From Candidatus Poribacteria bacterium (lineage in GTDB: Bacteria > Poribacteria > WGA-4E > WGA-3G), in NCBI GenBank assembly GCA_028820845.1, contig JAPPII010000109.1, positions 1-37,176 on the forward strand: a stretch of DNA of 37,176 nucleotides. The letters are read 5' to 3'. Below are positions 7,071 through 28,826 of the stretch, piece after piece (position 1 is the stretch's first letter; the number at the start of each line of letters is the position of its first letter). A program made the translations under genes and the position numbers. The notes below the pieces were generated by a model. That model was given only the letters and a program-made list of their open reading frames with translations. It was not told where the DNA came from and made no database searches.

Positions 7071-8885
7071 CTACTTTAAAATAAGCATTCGCCGTGTCTG
7101 CTGGAAAGATGGCGTTACCAATTGATAGAAATAGACACCACTTGCCACAGGTTCACTCAACGCATTACGTCCATCCCAATAAGCTGCGCGACCTTGATTC
7201 TGGTAAAAGCCTGCCGACTGATAGCCGAGCGAGAGCGTTCGGATGCGTTCACCTGTTGCATTGTAGATGGATAGCGACACCGGACCTGCTTCTGCAAGGC
7301 GATAGGGAATCCATGTCTCAGGGTTGAACGGGTTCGGGTAGTTCTGTAAGAGCAGACTCTGTTTCGGGACACCGATGCCGTCAAGTGTCACATTTAAAAC
7401 AGCATTTGCAAGGTCGGTAGCGTTCACGGTGAAAATAAATTTTTCTGAGACGATATTTCCATGTGTATCGCTCACGGTTAATGCCAAGGTATCCCCCAAC
7501 TCGACGACACTGCGACGATTAAGATCAGCAGTGGCAGCGGCGAAGTAACTATCGCGGACCCGAGTTTCCATCAGGGCACCGGTTCGGAGGTTTCGGACTG
7601 TGACGAGGTATCCGTCAAGGTGCTGCCTACCTTCTAAATACCCACTAACAACGAATGCCCATGCCTGATGGCGGATTACAAGGGGTGCAGCAGCACTCTG
7701 CGTCTGGTACATCCACGCTGTGCCGGTAAAGACAACGTCGCGCGCCTCTGGTAAATTGGCGATATATCCTTTTGCCCCTTCGATTGGAAATCCGTCGTCG
7801 GGTGCATTGGGTGTCCATGCTACAAACTGCTGGGTTGCAGGATCAAGCGTAATGACCGTTGTCGCGTCTATCTTTACTGCAAGTGAACGCGCTGTCATGT
7901 GGACAGTCGGTTTCAACGGTACAGACAACATGTTCAAACCTTTAGAGAGGTGCATAGAGAAAATACTGCCAAAATCTTCTCCGCCAGGTTGTGGTGTCGG
8001 TCTGCCGATGAATCCGAGCCTGCGTCCGTCTGCTAAGTCATAATAGCCGATAATACTTCCATCCTGATTAACATTTCGGACGACCGTGCTAATACTGCCT
8101 GGGAGCCGCACTTCATAGAGGGTGCCATCTGGCAGGAGGATATAGGACCGGAGAATATCATTTACAGCTTTTGCCCTGAAACCGATAACACCGAAATCGG
8201 TAATGGTGTTCACAAATAGGAATTCAAGATTCGGCATTTTTGGAAGGTCAATAGTGGTGAAACTACCGTCGGGGTTACGTATGAACCCATGCGGTATTCC
8301 ATCGGCATCCACGTAGCTGCCGACGACAGCCCCTGCGGCGTTGACGAAGTCCCCATAAGTGTTGACTGCACCAGGGAATGTAATTGTCATATCCCCTGAG
8401 AAGGCATGGGTGACACCGGTTTCATCGACGATGTTACCACTCAGTGCCCCTGTTTCGTCACTAAGCCCGTAGATGTGGGTTTCGGCTGCACCGGGGAAAT
8501 CGTATTGGCGGAGTTCGCCATCTTTCAGGATAACACCGTGGTAAAGTCCATCTATATCTTTGTAGTGTCCGGCTGCTTTTCCAGCGTTGTCGAGTGCATA
8601 GAAAAAGGTGTTGAGGGAACCCGGAAAATCGTATGTAGTGAAAACACCGTCTATCAATGTGAAGCCGATGGTTTTCTTTCCGTCAGGACTCCGGGTGTTC
8701 CCTGCGTAGTCTCCGAAGTCGTTGCTTGCACTCACCTCCAGAAAATCGACGCCTGGGACTTCAATCGTCTCAAAGGTGTAATCTGCAATCGGTGTTTCGG
8801 TGCTAACTTGTGCAACGGTATGACTTATGAAGCAGATAATTAGACATATAGACAAGAAAAATTTCATTTTTATATGGTGATTCAT
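7071..8885 (-). CDS. secreted HAF-repeat protein with FlgD-like C-terminal sorting domain
   Basis: A 604-residue exported protein. The signal peptide spans about residues 1-25 (hydrophobic core, then HTVAQ). Residues 30-300 contain repeated units of about 45 residues with motifs such as TYDFPGS, AAGHY, YHG and PHGF, matching the extracellular HAF repeat, probably a beta-propeller. A middle domain (about 310-400) starts SKGLNMLSVPL and has an all-beta look. The last 90 residues begin NYPNPFNPETWIPY and end in QTRRMLILK. This is the FlgD-Ig-like, type IX-secretion-style C-terminal domain used for export and surface attachment. AAGGA six bases before the ATG fixes the start. It is a paralogue of the larger gene upstream. 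Its cell-surface role is unknown. Confidence 0.85.
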   Translation of the reverse strand: MNHHIKMKFFLSICLIICFISHTVAQVSTETPIADYTFETIEVPGVDFLEVSASNDFGDYAGNTRSPDGKKTIGFTLIDGVFTTYDFPGSLNTFFYALDNAGKAAGHYKDIDGLYHGVILKDGELRQYDFPGAAETHIYGLSDETGALSGNIVDETGVTHAFSGDMTITFPGAVNTYGDFVNAAGAVVGSYVDADGIPHGFIRNPDGSFTTIDLPKMPNLEFLFVNTITDFGVIGFRAKAVNDILRSYILLPDGTLYEVRLPGSISTVVRNVNQDGSIIGYYDLADGRRLGFIGRPTPQPGGEDFGSIFSMHLSKGLNMLSVPLKPTVHMTARSLAVKIDATTVITLDPATQQFVAWTPNAPDDGFPIEGAKGYIANLPEARDVVFTGTAWMYQTQSAAAPLVIRHQAWAFVVSGYLEGRQHLDGYLVTVRNLRTGALMETRVRDSYFAAATADLNRRSVVELGDTLALTVSDTHGNIVSEKFIFTVNATDLANAVLNVTLDGIGVPKQSLLLQNYPNPFNPETWIPYRLAEAGPVSLSIYNATGERIRTLSLGYQSAGFYQNQGRAAYWDGRNALSEPVASGVYFYQLVTPSFQQTRRMLILK

Positions 8886-9160: not shown

Positions 9161-11857
9161 CTACTTTACAATGACAAGTCGGCGTGTTTGCTGGAACGAG
9201 GGTGTCGTCAACTGGTAAAAATAGATACCACTCGCAACGCGTTCCCCAAGGGTATTGCGTCCATCCCAATACGCAGCACGCTCGCGACTGTTATAGAAAC
9301 CTGCGGATTGAAAACCGAGCGAAAGTGTGCGAACCAATTTACCCGTTGTATCGTAAATGGATACCGATACAGAAGTATCTTCCGCGAGTTGATAGGGAAT
9401 CCACGTCTCCGGGTTAAACGGGTTCGGATAGTTCTGCAACAGGAGATTCTGATGCGGTCTACCAATCTCATCAAGTCTGAGGGACAACACGGCATTTGCG
9501 ATGTTCTCAGGGGTCACTGTAAAACTGAGGGGTTGTGATTCAAAGTTGCCATCGGGACCGATGACGCGCAATTCAACCACGTCTCCAACCTGAACGACGC
9601 TCTGCCGCCTCAGATCGGCAGTTGCCGCAGCGAAGTAATCGCCTTGCACCGCAGCGGTTATGATGCTATTTGTTCTCAGGTTTCGGACGCTTACGGTGTA
9701 GCCGTCAAAAGCGGGTTTCCCTTGCAAGTGTCCGCTGACAACGAATGCCCAGGCTTCCTGTGCTATCTCTGTAGATATAGCAGGTGATGCTGCAGCCGCC
9801 TCGGTTGGATCCGTCCAAGGTGCGCCGACGAAAGCGAAGTTTCGGGTTTCTGGGACATTGACGATGTAGCCTTGTCCACCTTCAATTGGGAAACCGTCAT
9901 TAGGTGCGCCGGGTGTCCATGCGACAAAATGCTGTTTTGCGGCATCAAGCGTGATGATAGTTGTTGCGCCTGTCATGGCGACCAGCGACTTGGCAGTCAT
10001 CGGTTTTGGAGGTGCCAATGGCACAGAAAGCATGTTTAGACCTTTAGAGAGCGTAACGGTGTAGGTGTTGCCAAAATGCGTGCTTACTGCCGCATCAACG
10101 GGTTTTGCGATAAATCCGTGTCTGCGTCCATCGGGTGAGTCGTAGTGTCCAACGACAGAGCCGTCCTGATTGATATTCCACCCTTCCGTGCTAACGCTAC
10201 CCGGAAACAGTAATGGACGCAACCCGTGCTGGAGTGAACCGACAGAAGTGCGCGGGACATCCGCTAAACGTTTGGATCTCCCAACGAGCGTGCCGACATC
10301 GTTGATACCGTGGACAAAAAAGTATTCAAACTGTTCGGCTTGTGGAAGGTCAAGAGATATGAACCTGCCATCTGGGTTATGGACATAAGGATGATATAGA
10401 CCGTCAGCATCTACGTAACTACCTACCATCCGACCGCTCGCGTTTATGAAATCGGCATAAGTTGCTGATGCTTCTGGAAACTCAACTATTTCGTCTCCTG
10501 AAAATCCGCGTCGCACGCCAGAAGCGTCCGTAAAATTACCTGTCAGTGCTCCCGTTGCATCGCTGATACCGTATATCTGCGTTTCGACGGCACCCGGAAA
10601 ATCGTATTGCTGGAACTCACCATTTTCTAAGACGACCCCATGGTAGCGTCCATCGCTATCTTGGTAGTGTCCGGCGGCTTGTCCATCATTACCGAGGGCA
10701 TAAAAGTGAGTTTTCTGTGAGCCCGGGAAATCGTAGGTGGTAAAAACGCCATCAATGAGCGTAAAGGCGACTTCTGTTTCACCATCTGCACTTTTTGTAT
10801 AATCGGCGTAATCTTCAAAGTCAGAACTCGCCGTCACCGCTAAAAAGTCTACACCCGGCACATCAATACTCTCAAACGTATAGTTGAGGTTGTCGGGTGT
10901 CGGAGTGGATTGATCATCAACTTGCGTAGCGGTATCCGTTATGGGTCTGGCAATAAACCCGTGTGTTTTGCCATCCGCTGATTTATAGTTTCCGACGATA
11001 GAGCCGTCCTGATTAATATTATAGCCTTCCGTGCTAACGCTGTCCGGCACCTTAAATCTCTGTAACCCCTTTTGGAATGTGCCGACAAGGGTGCCTGGGA
11101 GATCATCTATCCGTTTGGTTCGGGCAACGACAACCCTTGCATCGTTGATACCGTGGACAAAAAAGTATTCCAGATTCGCGGCTTGTGAAAGGTCGAGAGA
11201 TACAAACCTGCCCGTCGGGGTGCGCACATAAGGTTGATATAGACCGTCAGCATCTACGTAGCTGCCGACCATACCGCCGCTCGAATTCACAAAATCGGCA
11301 TAAGTTTCCGATGCCCCGGGTACCTCAATGATTTCAGCCCCTGAGAATCCACGGCGCACGCCAGAGGCATCTGTGAAATTACCCGTCAGTTTCCCTGTCG
11401 CGTCACTAATACCATAGATCTCCGTCTGGACGGCATCCGGAAAATTGTATTCCCGCAACTCACCATTTTCCAAGACGATCCCGTGGAAAAGACCGTCGCT
11501 ATCTTGGTAATGTCCGGCAGCGTTGCCGTTATTAGCGAGCGCGAAGAAATAAGTGTTCTGTGATCCAGGAAAATCATAGATGGTAAAAACGCCATCAATG
11601 AGGGTAAAGGCGACCTCTTTTTCACCATCGGCACTTTTTGTGTAGCCGGCGTAATCCTCAAAGTCACTACTTGCTGTGAGTGCTAAAAAATCTACACTTG
11701 GAACGTCGATCGTCTCAAATGTGTAGTTGTCACTGGCGGACGCGGTAATAAGTGCACCATCGTCTTGTGCATCGGTGTTCATTAGGAAAAAGAAATTGAA
11801 GCATAGAAACAACGTAAATGTGTAAAACAAAAAGTTGGTTTTTATATGCGTGTGCAT
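9161..11857 (-). CDS. secreted HAF-repeat protein with duplicated repeat domain and FlgD-like C-terminal domain
   Basis: An 898-residue exported protein. I start at the ATG at 11857, preceded by AAGGAG with a seven-base gap. A longer frame from 11923 adds 22 residues without a ribosome site. A signal peptide (about 1-30, FLFYTFTLFLCFNFFFL core) leads into two consecutive copies of a 261-residue HAF-repeat domain (about 45-305 and 326-586), roughly three-quarters identical, joined by a 20-residue Thr/Asp/Pro linker. A middle domain beginning SKGLNMLSVPL follows, then the FlgD-like, type IX-style terminal domain (NYPNPFNPETWIPY to the end). The single-domain paralogue directly downstream shares all parts, so the pair arose by tandem gene duplication and this copy later doubled its propeller region. 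The ligand is unknown. Confidence 0.87.
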   Translation of the reverse strand: MHTHIKTNFLFYTFTLFLCFNFFFLMNTDAQDDGALITASASDNYTFETIDVPSVDFLALTASSDFEDYAGYTKSADGEKEVAFTLIDGVFTIYDFPGSQNTYFFALANNGNAAGHYQDSDGLFHGIVLENGELREYNFPDAVQTEIYGISDATGKLTGNFTDASGVRRGFSGAEIIEVPGASETYADFVNSSGGMVGSYVDADGLYQPYVRTPTGRFVSLDLSQAANLEYFFVHGINDARVVVARTKRIDDLPGTLVGTFQKGLQRFKVPDSVSTEGYNINQDGSIVGNYKSADGKTHGFIARPITDTATQVDDQSTPTPDNLNYTFESIDVPGVDFLAVTASSDFEDYADYTKSADGETEVAFTLIDGVFTTYDFPGSQKTHFYALGNDGQAAGHYQDSDGRYHGVVLENGEFQQYDFPGAVETQIYGISDATGALTGNFTDASGVRRGFSGDEIVEFPEASATYADFINASGRMVGSYVDADGLYHPYVHNPDGRFISLDLPQAEQFEYFFVHGINDVGTLVGRSKRLADVPRTSVGSLQHGLRPLLFPGSVSTEGWNINQDGSVVGHYDSPDGRRHGFIAKPVDAAVSTHFGNTYTVTLSKGLNMLSVPLAPPKPMTAKSLVAMTGATTIITLDAAKQHFVAWTPGAPNDGFPIEGGQGYIVNVPETRNFAFVGAPWTDPTEAAAASPAISTEIAQEAWAFVVSGHLQGKPAFDGYTVSVRNLRTNSIITAAVQGDYFAAATADLRRQSVVQVGDVVELRVIGPDGNFESQPLSFTVTPENIANAVLSLRLDEIGRPHQNLLLQNYPNPFNPETWIPYQLAEDTSVSVSIYDTTGKLVRTLSLGFQSAGFYNSRERAAYWDGRNTLGERVASGIYFYQLTTPSFQQTRRLVIVK

Positions 11858-12101
11858 AACGAAACTCCTTAGTAAAGTTAGTAAAGTATAAAGTTCAAAG
11901 CAAAAAAATAGTATACCAAGCACCCTATCCGAGAGCCATTCAGTTTTCGGTTTCTCACGATTTTCTGCTGAGTGTCGCTGCTGCTACTGGCATACATGTT
12001 TTGGCAATGTCATACAAAGATAGGCTATCTTGGGATATCCAAAAATCCTATAAGAAAGTATGCAACATTTTGGCAAAAAAAGCAAGGGAATTATCATAAA
12101 G

Positions 12102-13103
12102 TTATTCGTCCCATGGCAATGGCACGCCTAAGCGTTCACTAACCTCGCGTGCGGATTCTTGTTCCATTTCACCGTAACGGATACCTTCACGACGATGCTG
12201 TTCGGTCCGCTCTATTTCGATAGCACCCGGTAGTAACGCCTTGTCAGTTCCCGGCATCGGTTCGTAAGTTTCACGGACATCGTGTACCATGCGATCAACT
12301 TCTGCGCGGAACACATCGAACGGAACGACAGATTCAATATCTATAGCAAGTACCATCCCTCCCTGTGGGGGTTTCCATTTTGCGGTGTCTTCGGGTGCGG
12401 TTTGGGTGAAGCCTGTGAGCCCACCACCGAGCAGGTGTGCCACAGCGGTGTAACCGATGCTTTTGAAGAAAGCCGCGGGGATCATCGAGAGCAGCGCATC
12501 GAATTCGGGACCGCGTTGGTAGTCTGCCATAATACAAGTTGCGGCATCTAACACAACCGGCGGCTCATCGCCAGAAGGGATGGCAAAACATATCGGTGGG
12601 TTGCCATAATAGCCAATCTGCGGTTTGGGGTCTCGGTTTCCGGCATTGCCGTGGTTTCGGGATCCCTGTACGGAAAACCCGATACAACCGGCTTCGCTAC
12701 AGATACGTGCGTAGTGTCCGGCTGACCCATAGTGCCCAATATAACGGACGAGTCCCATCCCAATACCAACTTCTTTTGCTTTGGCGATGGCATGTTCGGT
12801 GGCACGCACCATTGGCAGATAACCGAGCGTGCCGTTGCCGTCAAGCACGACGGCGGTTGGTGTCTCATGAATGATGCGGATATTCGGACGCGGATTAAGA
12901 CCTCCGTTTTCAAAGCCTCTGCAATATCTATTAACAGTTCGCGTGCCGTGACTACGGACACCTCGTAAATCAGAGTTGACGAGCAAACGGCTGATGAGTG
13001 CGGCGTGTTCGTGTGTGAGACCCGCTTTCTCGAAACAGACAGTGGAGAAGTTGAGGAGTCGTTCCTCATTGACTAAAACAAAAGTTTCTGGCGGTCTGTT
13101 CAT
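12102..13103 (-). CDS. Ldh2/malate dehydrogenase-family oxidoreductase, copy 2
   Basis: A 333-residue NAD(P)-dependent dehydrogenase of the Ldh2 family (PF02615), which reduces or oxidises 2-hydroxy or 2-keto acids (malate, lactate, ureidoglycolate, sulfolactate, cyclic imino acids). Diagnostic parts are the SDLRGVRSHGTRTV segment carrying the catalytic His, the GYLPMVRA and GHYGSAGHYA stretches, and the YGNPPICFAIPSG nucleotide-site region. The substrate is undetermined. AGGAG six bases before the ATG supports the start. It is a tandem duplicate of the gene 42 bases upstream. The copies differ most at the active-site-proximal segment after LTGFT, so they may have different substrates. Confidence 0.83.
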   Translation of the reverse strand: MNRPPETFVLVNEERLLNFSTVCFEKAGLTHEHAALISRLLVNSDLRGVRSHGTRTVNRYCRGFENGGLNPRPNIRIIHETPTAVVLDGNGTLGYLPMVRATEHAIAKAKEVGIGMGLVRYIGHYGSAGHYARICSEAGCIGFSVQGSRNHGNAGNRDPKPQIGYYGNPPICFAIPSGDEPPVVLDAATCIMADYQRGPEFDALLSMIPAAFFKSIGYTAVAHLLGGGLTGFTQTAPEDTAKWKPPQGGMVLAIDIESVVPFDVFRAEVDRMVHDVRETYEPMPGTDKALLPGAIEIERTEQHRREGIRYGEMEQESAREVSERLGVPLPWDE

Positions 13104-13143: not shown

Positions 13144-14148
13144 TTATTCGTCCCATGGCAGTGGTACGCCTAAGCGTTCACTAACCCCGCGTGCGGATTC
13201 CTGTTCCATTTCACCGTAACGGATACCTTCGCGGCGATGTTGTGCTGTGCGTTCTGTCTCAATCGAACCTGGTAGCAGTGCCCTGTCGGTTCCGGGCATT
13301 GGTTCATAAGTTTCGCGGACATCATGCACCATGCGGTCGACCTCGGTGTTGAAAACAGCAGCTGGTACAACGGATTCAATGTCTATAGCGAGGACCATGC
13401 CGCCCATGCGTCCACCGCTCCATTTTGCGGTATCCTCCGGTGGTGGTTCAGTGAAACCCGTCAGCGCGCCACCGAGTAGACTTGCCACGGCGGTGTAGCC
13501 GATACTCTTGAAGAAAGCCGCGGGAATGACGGAAAGCAGTGCATCAAAATCGGGACCGCGTTGGTAGTCTGCCATAATGCAGGTTGCGGCATCCAACACG
13601 ACAGGCGGTTCATCACCAGAAGGGATGGCGAAACATATCGGCGGATTGCCGTAGTAGCCGAGTTGCGGTTTGGGGTCTTGGTTTTCGGCGTTGCCTTGGT
13701 TCTGGTACCCCTGCACCGAAAACCCGATGCAACCGGCTTCGTTACAGATACGCGCATAATGTCCCGCGGAGCCGTAGTGTCCAATATAACGCACCAATCC
13801 CATCCCGATGCCGACCTCTTTCGCTTTGGCGATAGCGTGTTCGGTGGCACGCACCATTGGCAGATAACCGAGTGTACCGTTGCCGTCAAGCACGACAGCC
13901 GTTGGCGTTTCGTGGATGATGCGGATGTTCGGACGCGGATTGAAACTTCCGTTTTCAAACCCGCCACAATATCCATTAACAGTCCGTGTCCCGTGACTAC
14001 GGACACCTCGTAAGTCGGAATTGACGAGTAGGCGACTGATGAGTGCGGCGTGTTCGTGTGTAATGCCTGCTCTCTCAAAGCAGGCGGTGGAGAAGTTGAG
14101 GAGTCGTTCTTCGTCCACGTGAACAAAGGCTTCTGGTGGTCTATTCAT
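13144..14148 (-). CDS. Ldh2/malate dehydrogenase-family oxidoreductase, copy 1
   Basis: A 334-residue paralogue of the next gene, with the same Ldh2-family landmarks (RGVRSHGTRTV, GYLPMVRA, YGNPPICFAIPSG, PLPWDE at the C terminus). I start at the ATG at 14148, where the shared N terminus MNRPPE begins. The frame stays open to 14211, but that extension runs through a palindromic repeat and into the upstream gene. AAGGAG lies 13 bases upstream, farther than usual. It follows a substrate-binding lipoprotein on the same strand, suggesting uptake and oxidation of a small hydroxy acid or amino-acid-like compound; this is inference. Identity with the second copy is clearly over 80 percent by eye. 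Confidence 0.83.
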   Translation of the reverse strand: MNRPPEAFVHVDEERLLNFSTACFERAGITHEHAALISRLLVNSDLRGVRSHGTRTVNGYCGGFENGSFNPRPNIRIIHETPTAVVLDGNGTLGYLPMVRATEHAIAKAKEVGIGMGLVRYIGHYGSAGHYARICNEAGCIGFSVQGYQNQGNAENQDPKPQLGYYGNPPICFAIPSGDEPPVVLDAATCIMADYQRGPDFDALLSVIPAAFFKSIGYTAVASLLGGALTGFTEPPPEDTAKWSGGRMGGMVLAIDIESVVPAAVFNTEVDRMVHDVRETYEPMPGTDRALLPGSIETERTAQHRREGIRYGEMEQESARGVSERLGVPLPWDE

Positions 14149-14175
14149 ATTTTTTCTGCTACTCCTTGCGTTAAC

Positions 14176-14203
14176 GGCACACAGCGTGTGCCTACTACTT
14201 TTA
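14176..14203 (-). repeat. GTAGTAG-hairpin repeat abutting a stop codon
   Basis: On the minus strand the stop TAA of the binding lipoprotein is followed directly by AAGTAGTAG and the palindrome GGCACAC-gct-GTGTGCC (14192-14176). The same arrangement, including its contact with the stop codon, recurs at 28822-28849. Confidence 0.8.
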
Positions 14204-15370
14204 AGGGTCAATCTGCTTATAGAACTGCTTTTTGCCGTTTTTGATAGTGAAAATTACCGCGCTTTTCGTTGGGTGGCGGTTCTCGTCGTAATGTGCGATG
14301 TCAGTTGCCCCGATGTAGTTTTTCGTTGCCGCCAGTTCTTCCCGGATGGCTTCACCTTCAAGACTTCCCGCTCTCTCAATAGCTGCGATGAGAATTTGCG
14401 CTGCATCGTAACTTACGGCGTGTCCCCCGATCAGTAACGCTCCATAAGCTGCCCGGTAGGCTTCCACAAATGCTTTTCCGCTCGGTTTATCGGTTGCGGT
14501 TGAAAAATGTCCACTGAAGAAGCTGCCTTCAATGTCAATTTCTTCATTCATGAGTAGGTCGGGATTGTCCCATGCATCGGCACCGAGGAAAAGGACAGGT
14601 TGCCCTGCTGCATTTTGTAAAGAAAGGACTCTCGCTTGTTTCGCGATAAGTGTGATTTCCTCGGCTAACCCTGAGACAAAAAGTGCGTCGGGCGTGCCTT
14701 CAGCGATCCGTGTGAGTTGCTCGGTAAAATCTGTGGTGTTTTCTTCATAAAACACATTTGCCGCGATCGTGCCACCTGCGTGGGTGAAGTTTGTCCGGAA
14801 GAATTCGGATATGCCCTCCGTATAGACTTCGCCGCTTCTGGTGAGGAGTGCAACAGATGTCAAACCGAGTTCTTCAGCAGCAAACTGTGCCATGACGTTC
14901 CCTTGATAGGCATCCGTGAAGGCTGCCATAAAAACGAAATCACCGGCACTTGTTACGTTTGGATTCGTTGCAGTTGTGGTAACCATAGGCACACCGTGTT
15001 GCTGCGCCACTTCACTTACCGGAATAGCATGTGAAGAACGATTGGGTCCAAGAATCGCGATGATGTCGTCGTCTTGGATCATCGTTGCAGCGACTTGGAC
15101 CGCTGCCTCCGCTTCTATGAGCCCAACTGCGGTTATTAATTCAACAGGCATCCCTAACAGGCCGCCGCGAGCGTTGATTTCGGAGATAGCTATCTCCGCA
15201 CCGTTAGGATATGTCGTGCGGCTCCCTGAGGCGAGGAACCCAATTTTAAGGGTGGTTGACTCGGAGTCAACACCTTTTTCTGGGATAACAACTTGCTGGA
15301 TTTTATCACATCCAATGAGTGTCCATATTAGCACAAACACCACAGCAAGCGTTATAGGTATGTTTTTCAT
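14201..15370 (-). CDS. ABC-type branched-chain amino acid-like substrate-binding lipoprotein
   Basis: A 389-residue periplasmic binding protein of the Leu/Ile/Val type (Peripla_BP_6). The signal peptide ends in a lipobox LIGC with the lipidated Cys at about 21. The mature protein shows family hallmarks: LKIGFLASGSRTTYPNG near the start, ISEINARGGLLGMPVEL, a GPNRSSHAIPVSEVAQQHGVPMV stretch, and SYDAAQILIAAIERAGS near the end. Such proteins deliver amino acids, amides or aromatic acids to an ABC importer, but no permease or ATPase gene is present here, so it is an orphan component. AAGGAA four bases before the ATG supports the start. The Ldh2-type genes follow on the same strand. The gap to the divergent sulfotransferase is 128 bases. 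Confidence 0.85.
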   Translation of the reverse strand: MKNIPITLAVVFVLIWTLIGCDKIQQVVIPEKGVDSESTTLKIGFLASGSRTTYPNGAEIAISEINARGGLLGMPVELITAVGLIEAEAAVQVAATMIQDDDIIAILGPNRSSHAIPVSEVAQQHGVPMVTTTATNPNVTSAGDFVFMAAFTDAYQGNVMAQFAAEELGLTSVALLTRSGEVYTEGISEFFRTNFTHAGGTIAANVFYEENTTDFTEQLTRIAEGTPDALFVSGLAEEITLIAKQARVLSLQNAAGQPVLFLGADAWDNPDLLMNEEIDIEGSFFSGHFSTATDKPSGKAFVEAYRAAYGALLIGGHAVSYDAAQILIAAIERAGSLEGEAIREELAATKNYIGATDIAHYDENRHPTKSAVIFTIKNGKKQFYKQIDP

Positions 15371-18237: not shown

Positions 18238-18508
18238 TTAATCTTGGGTTTTCACGTCGCCCCATAATGTGCTTAAGAGCGATGATGAGGGGGAGACGGG
18301 GAGTTGGTTGGGTGCGAACCAATTTCCGGCATCATTGCTCCCGTTGCCTGTCAGTCGTGTCGCCTTTTGACTCACCAGATTGACTTTGAAAATTTGTGAG
18401 TTGCTCCTGTCGGGTTCCGTCAGGGTTCATTGCTGAGGGGTTTTGCTGAAACAGGGGAGAGGTGTCCGAAGTGAAACAGCAAACGATAGATATATATCGC
18501 AGTTTCAT
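18238..18508 (-). pseudogene. remnant of a secreted TolB/PD40-like protein (both ends kept, middle lost)
   Basis: A strong ribosome site (GGGAGG, six-base gap) leads to ATG at 18508 and a signal-peptide-like start, MKLRYISIVCCF. About 15 residues later comes MNPDGTRQEQLTN, the hallmark strand of TolB/PD40 beta-propeller repeats. The frame then runs to a stop at 18332. In another frame the end of such a protein is readable: RLTGNGSNDAGNWFAP, then LPVSPSSSLLSTLWGDVK and TQD, with stop TAA at 18240-18238. An intact protein of this class would be several hundred residues, so most of the propeller is missing and a frameshift lies near 18370-18395. The C-terminal LWGDVKTQD resembles the tails of the two intact secreted proteins upstream. 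It begins 27 bases after the previous gene's stop. Confidence 0.6.
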
Positions 18509-18535
18509 AAGCACCCTCCCCCTGTTACTCAGGCA

Positions 18536-19324
18536 TTATGGGCGCATTTTGAGTTGCGACCAGGTCACAGCAAGTTTATCATGCGGTTCAACAGCAAGAA
18601 TTTGATCCTGAAGGGTAGCGGCATAGAACAACAGGTTTTCAATAAACGGGAGATTCGTATCGACCTTCACCTGATCTTCATTTTGTATCGCCGTGATGAT
18701 ATATGCGCCCTTACCGTGATATAGGAGTGCCACAACGAGATGGTTACCAACCGTGGCGAGTGGAATATACGCCTTATCGGGATTGTGCCATTTATCATCC
18801 GTCACAATCTCTTCTATCTTGTTTGGCTCAGTGAAAAGCGTCCGAACCTCCGGTGCTTTTGTCGGTTCAAAATCCCATGTCCTCTCGGCTTCATCACCGT
18901 TTAGTGGTTTAGGGAGCCAAGGTGTTGGACACCCGACGGCATCATCGGAGTCCTGCTCAACGTTAATGCAAATCCCTCCCTCCTCCACAAACGCTAACAC
19001 AGCATCTGATCCCTGGTCCGTGAAACGCCATCCCCCTTCACAAATCTCACCTTGTCCAAGCCAGAGGATATCAAAATCATCGGCATCTGCTTTCGGGAGT
19101 TTCGTATCCTTCGTAACCTCGTAATCAAAGGTAAAATTCTGAACTTTTTTCACATTTTTACTAATCGTTTCTGCTTCAACTTGGACTACGTTGTTCCCCA
19201 ATATCAGAACCTTTTTTGTTGACGCAGCTATTGATGTAACAGAGAACATCGCTACAGTAAAGAGAAAACATAAACAACACATCAAAACAGCATGAAATTG
19301 ACTCATTATTGTATCCGTTTTCAT
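18536..19324 (-). CDS. exported protein with an amidotransferase/ThuA-like fold and a TWxQLK tail
   Basis: About 262 residues. The signal peptide follows a short charged start (hydrophobic core about 10-32, ending near SIAAS). The mature part begins KKVLILGNN and continues with a Rossmann-like alternation (DDFDILWLGQGE, AVLAFVEEGGICINVEQDSDD). It resembles the class I amidotransferase/ThuA-like fold used for flexible trehalose- or sugar-related proteins, but no catalytic triad is clear. It ends KLAVTWSQLKMRP, a tail shared with the next upstream secreted protein. I start at 19324 (GGAG 11 bases upstream); 19306 is a possible alternative and 19372 is unlikely. Function unknown. Confidence 0.7.
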   Translation of the reverse strand: MKTDTIMSQFHAVLMCCLCFLFTVAMFSVTSIAASTKKVLILGNNVVQVEAETISKNVKKVQNFTFDYEVTKDTKLPKADADDFDILWLGQGEICEGGWRFTDQGSDAVLAFVEEGGICINVEQDSDDAVGCPTPWLPKPLNGDEAERTWDFEPTKAPEVRTLFTEPNKIEEIVTDDKWHNPDKAYIPLATVGNHLVVALLYHGKGAYIITAIQNEDQVKVDTNLPFIENLLFYAATLQDQILAVEPHDKLAVTWSQLKMRP

Positions 19325-19448
19325 TTCTTGAATAGCTCCTTTTGATGCAACAGAAAGTTGCGTAGGTTCCATAATATAAAGGTTCGCCTACCTTTTATTC
19401 TGATAGACGTATCTGTAACGTGCGTTTGATAAATACATCAGAGATTTT

Positions 19449-19541
19449 TGTATAAAGAGAACCCCTTTGGTATAATGAAGTATAACATCTTCAACCCAAA
19501 GGAGTTCTCCAATGTCTGATGATTCCTCTCAATCTAAATGA
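19449..19541 (+). promoter_or_regulatory. orphan promoter, ribosome site and 9-codon ORF
   Basis: TTGTAT (19449-19454) and TATAAT (19472-19477) are 17 bases apart. Downstream, AAGGAG (19499-19504) lies seven bases before ATG at 19512, and the frame ends after nine codons at 19541, inside the 3' end of the convergent gene. It is either the leftover start of a lost gene or a source of antisense RNA to the neighbouring secreted-protein gene. Confidence 0.5.
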
Positions 19542-20272
19542 CCCTTCAGTTGTGCCCATGTCGTTGTTAATTTGTTTGCAGCTTCAACGGACAATCCTGA
19601 TCCGCCCCCAAATTTGACATCAATCTCAAATTCATGAATTGTCTCGTGTACGTCCCGATCCCTTGGCGTTACCGGTTTCTTCCAACGGTCTTTGTTTGGT
19701 TTCCCCTTAGGTACTTTCGTCGCTTCAACATCGGGCATCGAATCCACAATTTTCGATACATCCCATGTAGGAATTTCGCCTATAGGAGAAAGTGTGGCAA
19801 TATTGGCTGAACGTGCGATTTCGACCCCATTCAGCCACAAAATATAGGAATCGTCATAGTCAATCCGAAACATAATTTTTTTCGATGTAGTCGCCTTAGG
19901 TACATCAAAGTGATAGCGCGTGTAAAGCGAACCAACTTCCCCCGATTTGATTTCCGTATTATCATCCCCATCACCGTAACCGATGCTGATGATGCCGTTT
20001 TTCCAGCTCGTATCGTCAAATTTGAGTTCAGTCCAATCCTCAACGTCTTCGTCAGGAACATGATATTTCACCTCAAAGCCTTCGTCAAAAATAACATCGT
20101 TTCCGACGGTGAGTTGGATAATAAGTGTCATATCACTACTACTGAACCCATCATTATAACATCCCGCAGCAAGCACATTATCTTTTGTAAAGAGCTTAGG
20201 GGTATCAAAGGCATAAGCTAGAGATGCGAATGTACAGCAGAGGGATAGGTAAAAGAGAATACGTTTAGTCAT
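19529..20272 (-). CDS. exported protein with a galactose-binding-like domain and a TWxQLK tail
   Basis: A 247-residue protein with a clear signal peptide (MTKRILFYLSLCCTFASLAYA). Residues about 50-150 contain FDDTSWKNGIISIGYGDGDD, YTRYHFDVP and DDSYILWLNGVEIAR. This is the jelly-roll pattern seen in galactose-binding-like and carbohydrate-binding domains appended to glycosidases and peptidases. No enzyme domain is present, so a ligand- or polysaccharide-binding role is the best guess. The C terminus KLTTTWAQLKGHLD matches the tail of the downstream secreted protein though the rest is unrelated. AAGGAG eight bases before the ATG supports the start; a promoter with TTGACA lies at 20326-20355. 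Confidence 0.72.
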   Translation of the reverse strand: MTKRILFYLSLCCTFASLAYAFDTPKLFTKDNVLAAGCYNDGFSSSDMTLIIQLTVGNDVIFDEGFEVKYHVPDEDVEDWTELKFDDTSWKNGIISIGYGDGDDNTEIKSGEVGSLYTRYHFDVPKATTSKKIMFRIDYDDSYILWLNGVEIARSANIATLSPIGEIPTWDVSKIVDSMPDVEATKVPKGKPNKDRWKKPVTPRDRDVHETIHEFEIDVKFGGGSGLSVEAANKLTTTWAQLKGHLD

Positions 20273-27698: not shown

Positions 27699-28826
27699 TT
27701 AGAAAGTCCAGAGCAGACTCAAGAAGTGTGTGCTAATCAGGTCGCCGAAGAGGAGGGCGTAATCGAGGCGGAATTCGCGGCGTAGGATGCCGATGCCGGC
27801 GGTAATGCGGTCATCACGGTAGCCGATGCGTAATGCTAATGGATTGCTAATATGGTATTCAGCACCGAAATGTGTTTGCCCACCATAGCGTTGCTGCCAT
27901 TGGTAGGAGAGGATGAGTTTTCGACCAAAAATGTGAGGGTTGGTATACGCCACACCGACGTTCCAATTCGAGGGGATGGATTCTTTAGGTGCGGATTCAG
28001 TATTCCACGTCAAGGTCGTCTTTGAGATGTCTTGAAGGTTCAAGCCGAATGAGAAGCTGCCAACATTTTCTAAACCAAAAATGGCGTTGAGATCCGGTAA
28101 ACGAGCAAGTATACCGACATCAAAGCCGTAGCCACTGCTCCCATAGTTGTAAGTATCAAGGTCTCCACTGCTCAGACGTTGTGATATCCATTTGGCGTTC
28201 GCACCAATCATAAACGATGGCGGCAGGGAATCCCGTCCAAAATTATTCCACCACGATTGACTAACGACCCACCCCGTCGCGAGTGTCAGGATATAGGCGT
28301 TCTCGCTGTCATTGAGGTAACCCGCTGGATCAAAATCTGAGGCGCGCGGTCGGTTCTTTGCGAGGTTCTTCCGTTCATCGGCACTGATATTCGGATCGAA
28401 CGCTGGAACGAGTGGGTATATGGGAATATCGTCCACGCCTGCGCGAAGCCACGACAGTCCGAGGTTGAGTTTGGGGAGAAGTTTCGTCGTGCCGGAGATA
28501 TAGTTGAATGCACCTAATCCCGAACGCCGTGCGGCATGCATGAGGCAGAATTGATACTTATCAGAAACGCCTGCGATACCGGCGGGATTCCAATAAGTGG
28601 CAGTCGCATCATCAGCGATGCTGACATAGGCACCGCCTAATCCGAGTGCCCGTCCCCCAACGCCGTTTGTCAGAAAATCGCCGGTGTAGTTTTCCGCTGA
28701 AGATCGCGGCACAACGCTGCAGCCTAACGCAATCAGAACAACTAATAGACACGTGAAGATATTAGACTTCCGTTTTCGCAACTTAGTCAATTGATTTCTG
28801 TTTCCTTTGAAAAACGTGAACGGCAC
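27699..28826 (-). CDS. PorV/PorQ-like outer-membrane beta-barrel protein
   Basis: A 375-residue exported protein. The signal peptide has a hydrophobic core (CLLVVLIALGC) and a likely cleavage after SSA near residue 44. The mature start FLTNGVGGRALGLGGAYVSIADDATATYWNPAGIAG is characteristic of PorV/PorQ/UPF0164 barrel proteins. Amphipathic strands continue to a terminal Phe (SLLWTF), the usual barrel end. In type IX secretion, PorV shuttles cargo carrying the C-terminal sorting domain, and two such cargo proteins lie in this window. The annotated GTG at 28826 sits inside a palindromic repeat; a TTG at 28790, 12 bases after AAAGGA, is a good alternative. Confidence 0.75.
   Translation of the reverse strand: MPFTFFKGNRNQLTKLRKRKSNIFTCLLVVLIALGCSVVPRSSAENYTGDFLTNGVGGRALGLGGAYVSIADDATATYWNPAGIAGVSDKYQFCLMHAARRSGLGAFNYISGTTKLLPKLNLGLSWLRAGVDDIPIYPLVPAFDPNISADERKNLAKNRPRASDFDPAGYLNDSENAYILTLATGWVVSQSWWNNFGRDSLPPSFMIGANAKWISQRLSSGDLDTYNYGSSGYGFDVGILARLPDLNAIFGLENVGSFSFGLNLQDISKTTLTWNTESAPKESIPSNWNVGVAYTNPHIFGRKLILSYQWQQRYGGQTHFGAEYHISNPLALRIGYRDDRITAGIGILRREFRLDYALLFGDLISTHFLSLLWTF

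Follow-up and report, generated by a model that had tools for sequence, protein, structure and literature searches.

Poribacteria carry a short C-terminal tail on many unrelated exported proteins, and we read this tail, with a probability of about 0.75, as a sorting tag. It looks like a phylum-wide and practically Poribacteria-only tag of which Pfam, NCBIfam and the open-access literature yielded no description, with subscription papers and preprints outside the search; the initial annotation, made from the DNA alone, likewise knew of no function for it. The poribacterial type IX secretion system (T9SS) is a putative reader of the tail, a reading to which we give slightly less than even odds.

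The tail was noticed in the window, the whole stretch of 37,176 nucleotides that was analysed, whose features are collected in Table 1. It had been described on two exported proteins with unrelated bodies and on a decayed TolB-like gene, and all three sightings were borne out. Both proteins end in the tail at their stop codons, and the best blastp alignment between their bodies (E 0.04 across 35 residues) is not significant. Tailed TolB-like proteins from the window's genome align to the TolB-like remnant, tail included (tblastn, E 1.4e-5); the remnant's tail has LL where others have KL, a variant shared with intact TolB-like proteins. LL-variant tails are found on exported TolB-like proteins at G000 C11:17481-18476, C33:108698-109690 and L101:9431-10438. 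Neither window body belongs to a Pfam family, and NCBIfam and PDB yielded nothing significant; part of an alpha-L-rhamnosidase model matched the 247-aa protein at E 0.003, far under the cut-off. The body of the 262-aa protein has tailed homologues in a distant Poribacteria class (L079, E 1e-17). The window also includes a tandem pair of closely similar dehydrogenase-like genes on the minus strand (12102-13103 and 13144-14211).

Table 1. Tails, host proteins and neighbouring genes in the window.
Feature	Position	Strand	Remarks
Tail PVSPSSSLLSTLWGDVKTQD of decayed TolB-like gene, LL variant	18241..18300	-	
TolB-like gene, decayed 3' part	18238..18456	-	one in-frame stop; other-frame piece 18374-18430
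Tail VEPHDKLAVTWSQLKMRP, C-terminal, first tailed protein	18539..18592	-	runs to stop codon
Exported tailed protein, 262 aa	18536..19324	-	no Pfam, NCBIfam or PDB sequence match
Sec-type signal sequence, 262-aa protein	19223..19324	-	~34 aa, by inspection and heuristic
Tail VEAANKLTTTWAQLKGHLD, C-terminal, second tailed protein	19532..19588	-	runs to stop codon
Exported tailed protein, 247 aa	19529..20272	-	partial alpha-L-rhamnosidase model, weak
Sec-type signal sequence MTKRILFYLSLCCTFASLAYA, 247-aa protein	20210..20272	-	~21 aa
HAF-repeat protein with type A T9SS sorting domain (TIGR04183)	7071..8885	-	other tail class
Second HAF-repeat protein with type A T9SS sorting domain	9161..11923	-	
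PorV/PorQ-family protein (NF033709)	27699..28826	-	one of ~16 in the window's genome

The tail consensus is L-x-V-[ED]-[PA]-x-x-K-L-[AT]-T-T-W-[GA]-x-[LI]-K, followed by about 1-10 residues; in 88 sampled tails, the distance from the final K to the stop is 1-17 residues. Numbered from W in these 88 tails, the preferred residues by column are L/F (-12), V (-10; 83/88), E/D (-9), P/A (-8), G/D (-6), K (-5), L (-4), A/T (-3), T (-2, -1), G/A (+1), L/I (+3) and K (+4), where the K, L/F, W and K positions were preset by the search pattern. The motif as initially described needs correction at two positions: the residue before K is not restricted to D or N, being mostly G or D, and the position after V, given as E, is in most tails one of E, D, S, K and Q. 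For counting, we used a DNA pattern coding for K-L-xxx-W-xx-hydrophobic-K, with the reversed pattern as control. The 5.69-Mb genome of the window has 146 matches to the coding pattern versus nine to the reversed control; together with the low phylum-wide controls, this rules out chance likeness of the tails.

Terminal position and export were assessed in an 823-kb sample composed of long contigs and the window, with 572 genes from a simple caller. By a looser tail definition, 34 genes are tailed, and the strict motif is internal in none, as the initial annotation had proposed. Its claim that the bearers are exported also holds: our heuristic recognised a signal peptide in 32 of the 34 tailed genes versus 149 of the 538 others (28%; Fisher p 4e-15), and the two tailed genes that fail the heuristic appear, by eye, to have signal sequences. 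Tailed proteins make up approximately one-fifth of the exported proteins in this sample, and the whole genome should contain roughly 140-230 tailed genes, the upper figure being extrapolated from contigs already known as tail-bearing. None of the tails examined has a transmembrane or hydrophobic stretch with a basic end after the motif.

The tail is modular. Among the bodies of 81 tailed proteins from the window's genome, LamG_3 is present in 43 and 3-keto-disaccharide hydrolase in seven; others include CBM9, F5/8, GH59 C-terminal lectin, Kelch, LTD and NPCBM domains. TolB-like bodies are tailed as well. A fold search with a LamG model returned general lectin-like domains only, including binding domains of unrelated proteins, and was uninformative on the tail. 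At sites where tails have the same residue, their codons agree in 89%, 100% and 30% of cases at the first, second and third positions, which points to an old peptide under selection and not copied DNA; on this codon pattern, we consider the tail peptide to be under purifying selection. The tail DNA of the window pair is 60% identical, versus a mean of 59% for random tail pairs.

The search was extended to relatives, and every Poribacteria genome proved positive, with the coding pattern present in 85 of 85. When G or A is required after W, the 84 Poribacteria genomes searched (84/84) have 16-166 matches each (reversed pattern, 0-4), and 128 non-Poribacteria genomes have 0-3, which is background. 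Across 84,980 GTDB species, the exact DNA pattern yielded 62 stretches, of which 61 are from Candidatus or uncultured Poribacteria; this pattern runs one base off frame past the W-G codons, so that it finds only tails with a TNA codon at W+3, and the result is an undercount that speaks to specificity only. The 62nd stretch, from Phycisphaerae, was rejected as a real tail, since it is a spurious ORF of 58 residues. The tail is common to all 10 families of the phylum, and in distant classes (G001, G002) it ends signal-peptide-bearing proteins whose bodies include LamG and 3-keto-disaccharide hydrolase-like ones. One genome outside the phylum (G154) has two real-looking tails (L071, L072) in a PVELxxF protein, on contigs of 7 and 11 kb. 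The small contigs and the 60-73% identity of this protein to poribacterial ones make bin contamination or transfer likely.

Poribacteria also encode parts of a T9SS. Kamke et al. detected type A sorting domains in Poribacteria in a single-cell study from 2014, but did not find the Por structural genes (PMC3909097). Contrary to that study, SprA, PorU-like and PorV-family genes are present phylum-wide, which resolves the puzzle. A divergent SprA is encoded in 84 of 85 Poribacteria genomes versus 0 of 14 controls, mostly in one frame of about 2,150-2,300 aa, and PorU-like C25 peptidases are encoded in 84 of 85, usually two to three each; these SprA and PorU matches score under the curated equivalog cut-offs, and the genes of the window's genome were identified with NCBIfam. 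All 85 genomes have type A sorting domains and 8-24 copies of the PorV/PorQ family. The tailed proteins resemble T9SS substrates in the wide sense in having a Sec signal peptide, in genomes that encode SprA, PorU and PorV. The GldM model has no match in Poribacteria, but the control genomes are likewise silent, and the PorP/SprF model gives weak scattered matches only. In the window's genome, SprA is located at G000:C22:7593-11036 and PorU-like C25 genes at C10:24291-30560, C11:34567-39651 and C74:150317-156682. Each of these three PorU-like proteins ends in a type A domain, and the one on C10 is followed by a PorV-family gene.

The tail and the type A domain appear to be alternatives. In agreement with the initial distinction between the tail and the FlgD-like type A domain, the two never occur on one protein (no overlap between 16 type A and 143 tailed proteins), and the type A domain (TIGR04183/PF18962) is absent from both window tailed proteins and from the families of the 81 tailed proteins. 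In the 823-kb sample, 34 tailed genes compare with 11 type A genes, with median lengths of 260 and 963 aa. The tail follows the PVELxxF domain within 16-27 residues in eight of eight poribacterial-type proteins, and in other phyla nine of 19 homologues have a type A T9SS domain after the PVELxxF domain. Related domains in Poribacteria can have either ending, as in the adjacent C33 genes at 47919-50168 (type A) and 50272-52980 (tail). The shared slot indicates that the tail replaces a T9SS signal; it does not follow that the same machine reads both.

Gene neighbourhoods do not support a link to the T9SS beyond the window's genus. A tailed gene lies beside sprA in the window's genome and in G084 and G082, all of the window's genus; there is none among the sprA loci read from other genera and families, so the linkage of sprA to tailed genes is local only. 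Tailed genes cluster with one another (18/34 within 3 kb of another versus 6.3 expected) and are not enriched near type A genes in the same 823-kb sample (2/11 within 3 kb versus 1.7 expected). For PorV, a two-sequence profile found just the window copy in the 823 kb. Across genomes, the number of tails shows no clear trend, by eye, with the copy number of PorV or C25, and since SprA is ubiquitous in the phylum, presence/absence profiling cannot tie it to the tail.

Altogether, the terminal position, modularity, signal peptides, phylum-wide conservation, T9SS parts and shared type A slot support a sorting tag with the T9SS as putative reader. By this mechanism, Sec would first export the tailed proteins via their N-terminal signal peptides, a step predicted from the sequences. 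At the C terminus, the final ~18-20 residues (V-[ED]-[PA]-x-x-K-L-x-T-T-W-[GA]-x-[LI]-K) would remain exposed outside the folded domain, and recognition of the tail in the periplasm or at the outer membrane would bring the protein to its final place, either secreted or held at the surface. The likeliest reader would be the SprA translocon together with shuttles of the PorV family and the PorU-like C25 peptidases, making the tail an extra, far shorter T9SS signal alongside the type A domain. The T9SS is known to take signals of several classes, with shuttles that differ between them (PMC10202324, PMC12618676), and the expanded PorV family would fit such an arrangement. Weighing against the T9SS as reader are the lack of an Ig-like fold in the tail, the lack of linkage to type A genes and the restriction of sprA adjacency to one genus.

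It is doubtful, though the best of the alternatives, that a separate sorting machine (a dedicated peptidase, transpeptidase or outer-membrane receptor) reads the tail independently of the T9SS. The tail is unlike known T9SS signals in length or fold, is limited to one phylum, outnumbers type A and serves a different class of clients, as their median lengths show. In its fullest form, this would be a dedicated Poribacteria-only sorting and surface-attachment system, with a reader (perhaps a transpeptidase) unlike known sortases, that handles up to one-fifth of the exported proteome, and we hold it to be equally doubtful. The tail, however, takes the type A slot in homologous proteins, and no candidate partner was found. 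The initial annotation had proposed to look for a co-occurring peptidase or transpeptidase: sortase (PF04203) is found in 0 of 85 Poribacteria genomes and exosortase (PF09721) in only three of 85, which excludes an LPXTG sortase or exosortase as general partner, and the only phylum-wide sortase-type peptidases are the PorU-like C25 peptidases of the T9SS. Because these are phylum-wide and the tail takes the type A slot, a novel entry signal for the T9SS already present is no less likely than an independent route. Of the initial idea, the short modular tag on exported proteins is supported, and the second sorting or anchoring route is doubtful.

Unlikely, too, is a permanent docking helix, by which exported lectin-like proteins would bind a common periplasmic, outer-membrane or surface scaffold, with the tail being no secretion signal at all. 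Dockerins bind cohesins, and the binding can be likened to that pairing. Many clients have carbohydrate-binding folds, and AlphaFold2 models of two unrelated families place the tail, as a separate C-terminal helix, outside a confident beta body. Body pLDDT is mostly >90, but that of the helix is low (~58-67). The L, W and L/I residues lie on one helix face (angles 100, 140 and 80 degrees), yet the helical hydrophobic moment of the tail is 0.30 versus 0.29 for shuffled peptides, not higher, and we rejected an amphipathic helix on this ground. No receptor is known.

The remaining explanations fare worse. A tag that marks periplasmic proteins for quality control or degradation would suit a short C-terminal tail with hydrophobic residues close to its end, but is very improbable for a tail that is under strong selection on a large share of exported proteins and, unlike degrons requiring a fixed end, is followed by 1-17 variable residues. 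Cargo loading into a protein compartment (encapsulin or microcompartment) is scarcely credible: the G-x-L-K within a short C-terminal peptide loosely recalls encapsulin cargo peptides, but the clients have N-terminal Sec signal sequences and encapsulins are cytoplasmic. Recent duplication or gene conversion between neighbours, named initially as grounds for refutation and seemingly favoured by the clustering of tailed genes, is excluded for practical purposes by random third positions, a window pair no closer than random pairs, unrelated bodies and an identical tail type in all 10 families.

Poribacteria, known above all from marine sponges, are uncultured, and it has so far been mostly guesswork which of their proteins leave the cell and could act on the host. 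In each genome, the tail marks well over 100 exported proteins, carbohydrate-binding ones among them; it is directly searchable, and therefore provides a predicted surface and secreted proteome for the whole phylum. If the T9SS reads a tail of ~20 residues, then a folded domain is not required of a T9SS signal; if it does not, an undiscovered sorting machine remains to be found.

Several known systems invite comparison. PEP-CTERM, LPXTG, GlyGly-CTERM and MYXO-CTERM signals consist of a motif, a transmembrane helix and basic residues, and are read by exosortase, sortase, rhombosortase and myxosortase. Like the tail, they are short C-terminal homologies shared by unrelated exported proteins, which number from dozens to hundreds in a genome; unlike them, the tail has no transmembrane segment, and their sortase and exosortase readers are absent or rare in Poribacteria. 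Encapsulin cargo proteins are cytoplasmic, with a short C-terminal peptide containing G-x-L-[KR]; the tail is similarly short and C-terminal with this motif, but poribacterial clients carry signal peptides. The T9SS type A domain, some 70-100 residues long, has an Ig-like beta-sandwich fold. The tail resembles it (TIGR04183/PF18962) in being C-terminal on Sec-exported proteins with many unrelated bodies and in its ability to follow a PVELxxF domain, and differs in its length of ~20 residues, in the lack of an independent fold and in never sharing a protein with it. Type B and type C C-terminal domains of the T9SS have been reviewed (PMC10202324), and type B domains have their own PorP/SprF shuttles (PMC12618676). 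These domains, at least about 100 residues long, contain several motifs and have no sequence likeness to the tail, but they resemble it as alternative signals on Sec-exported proteins.
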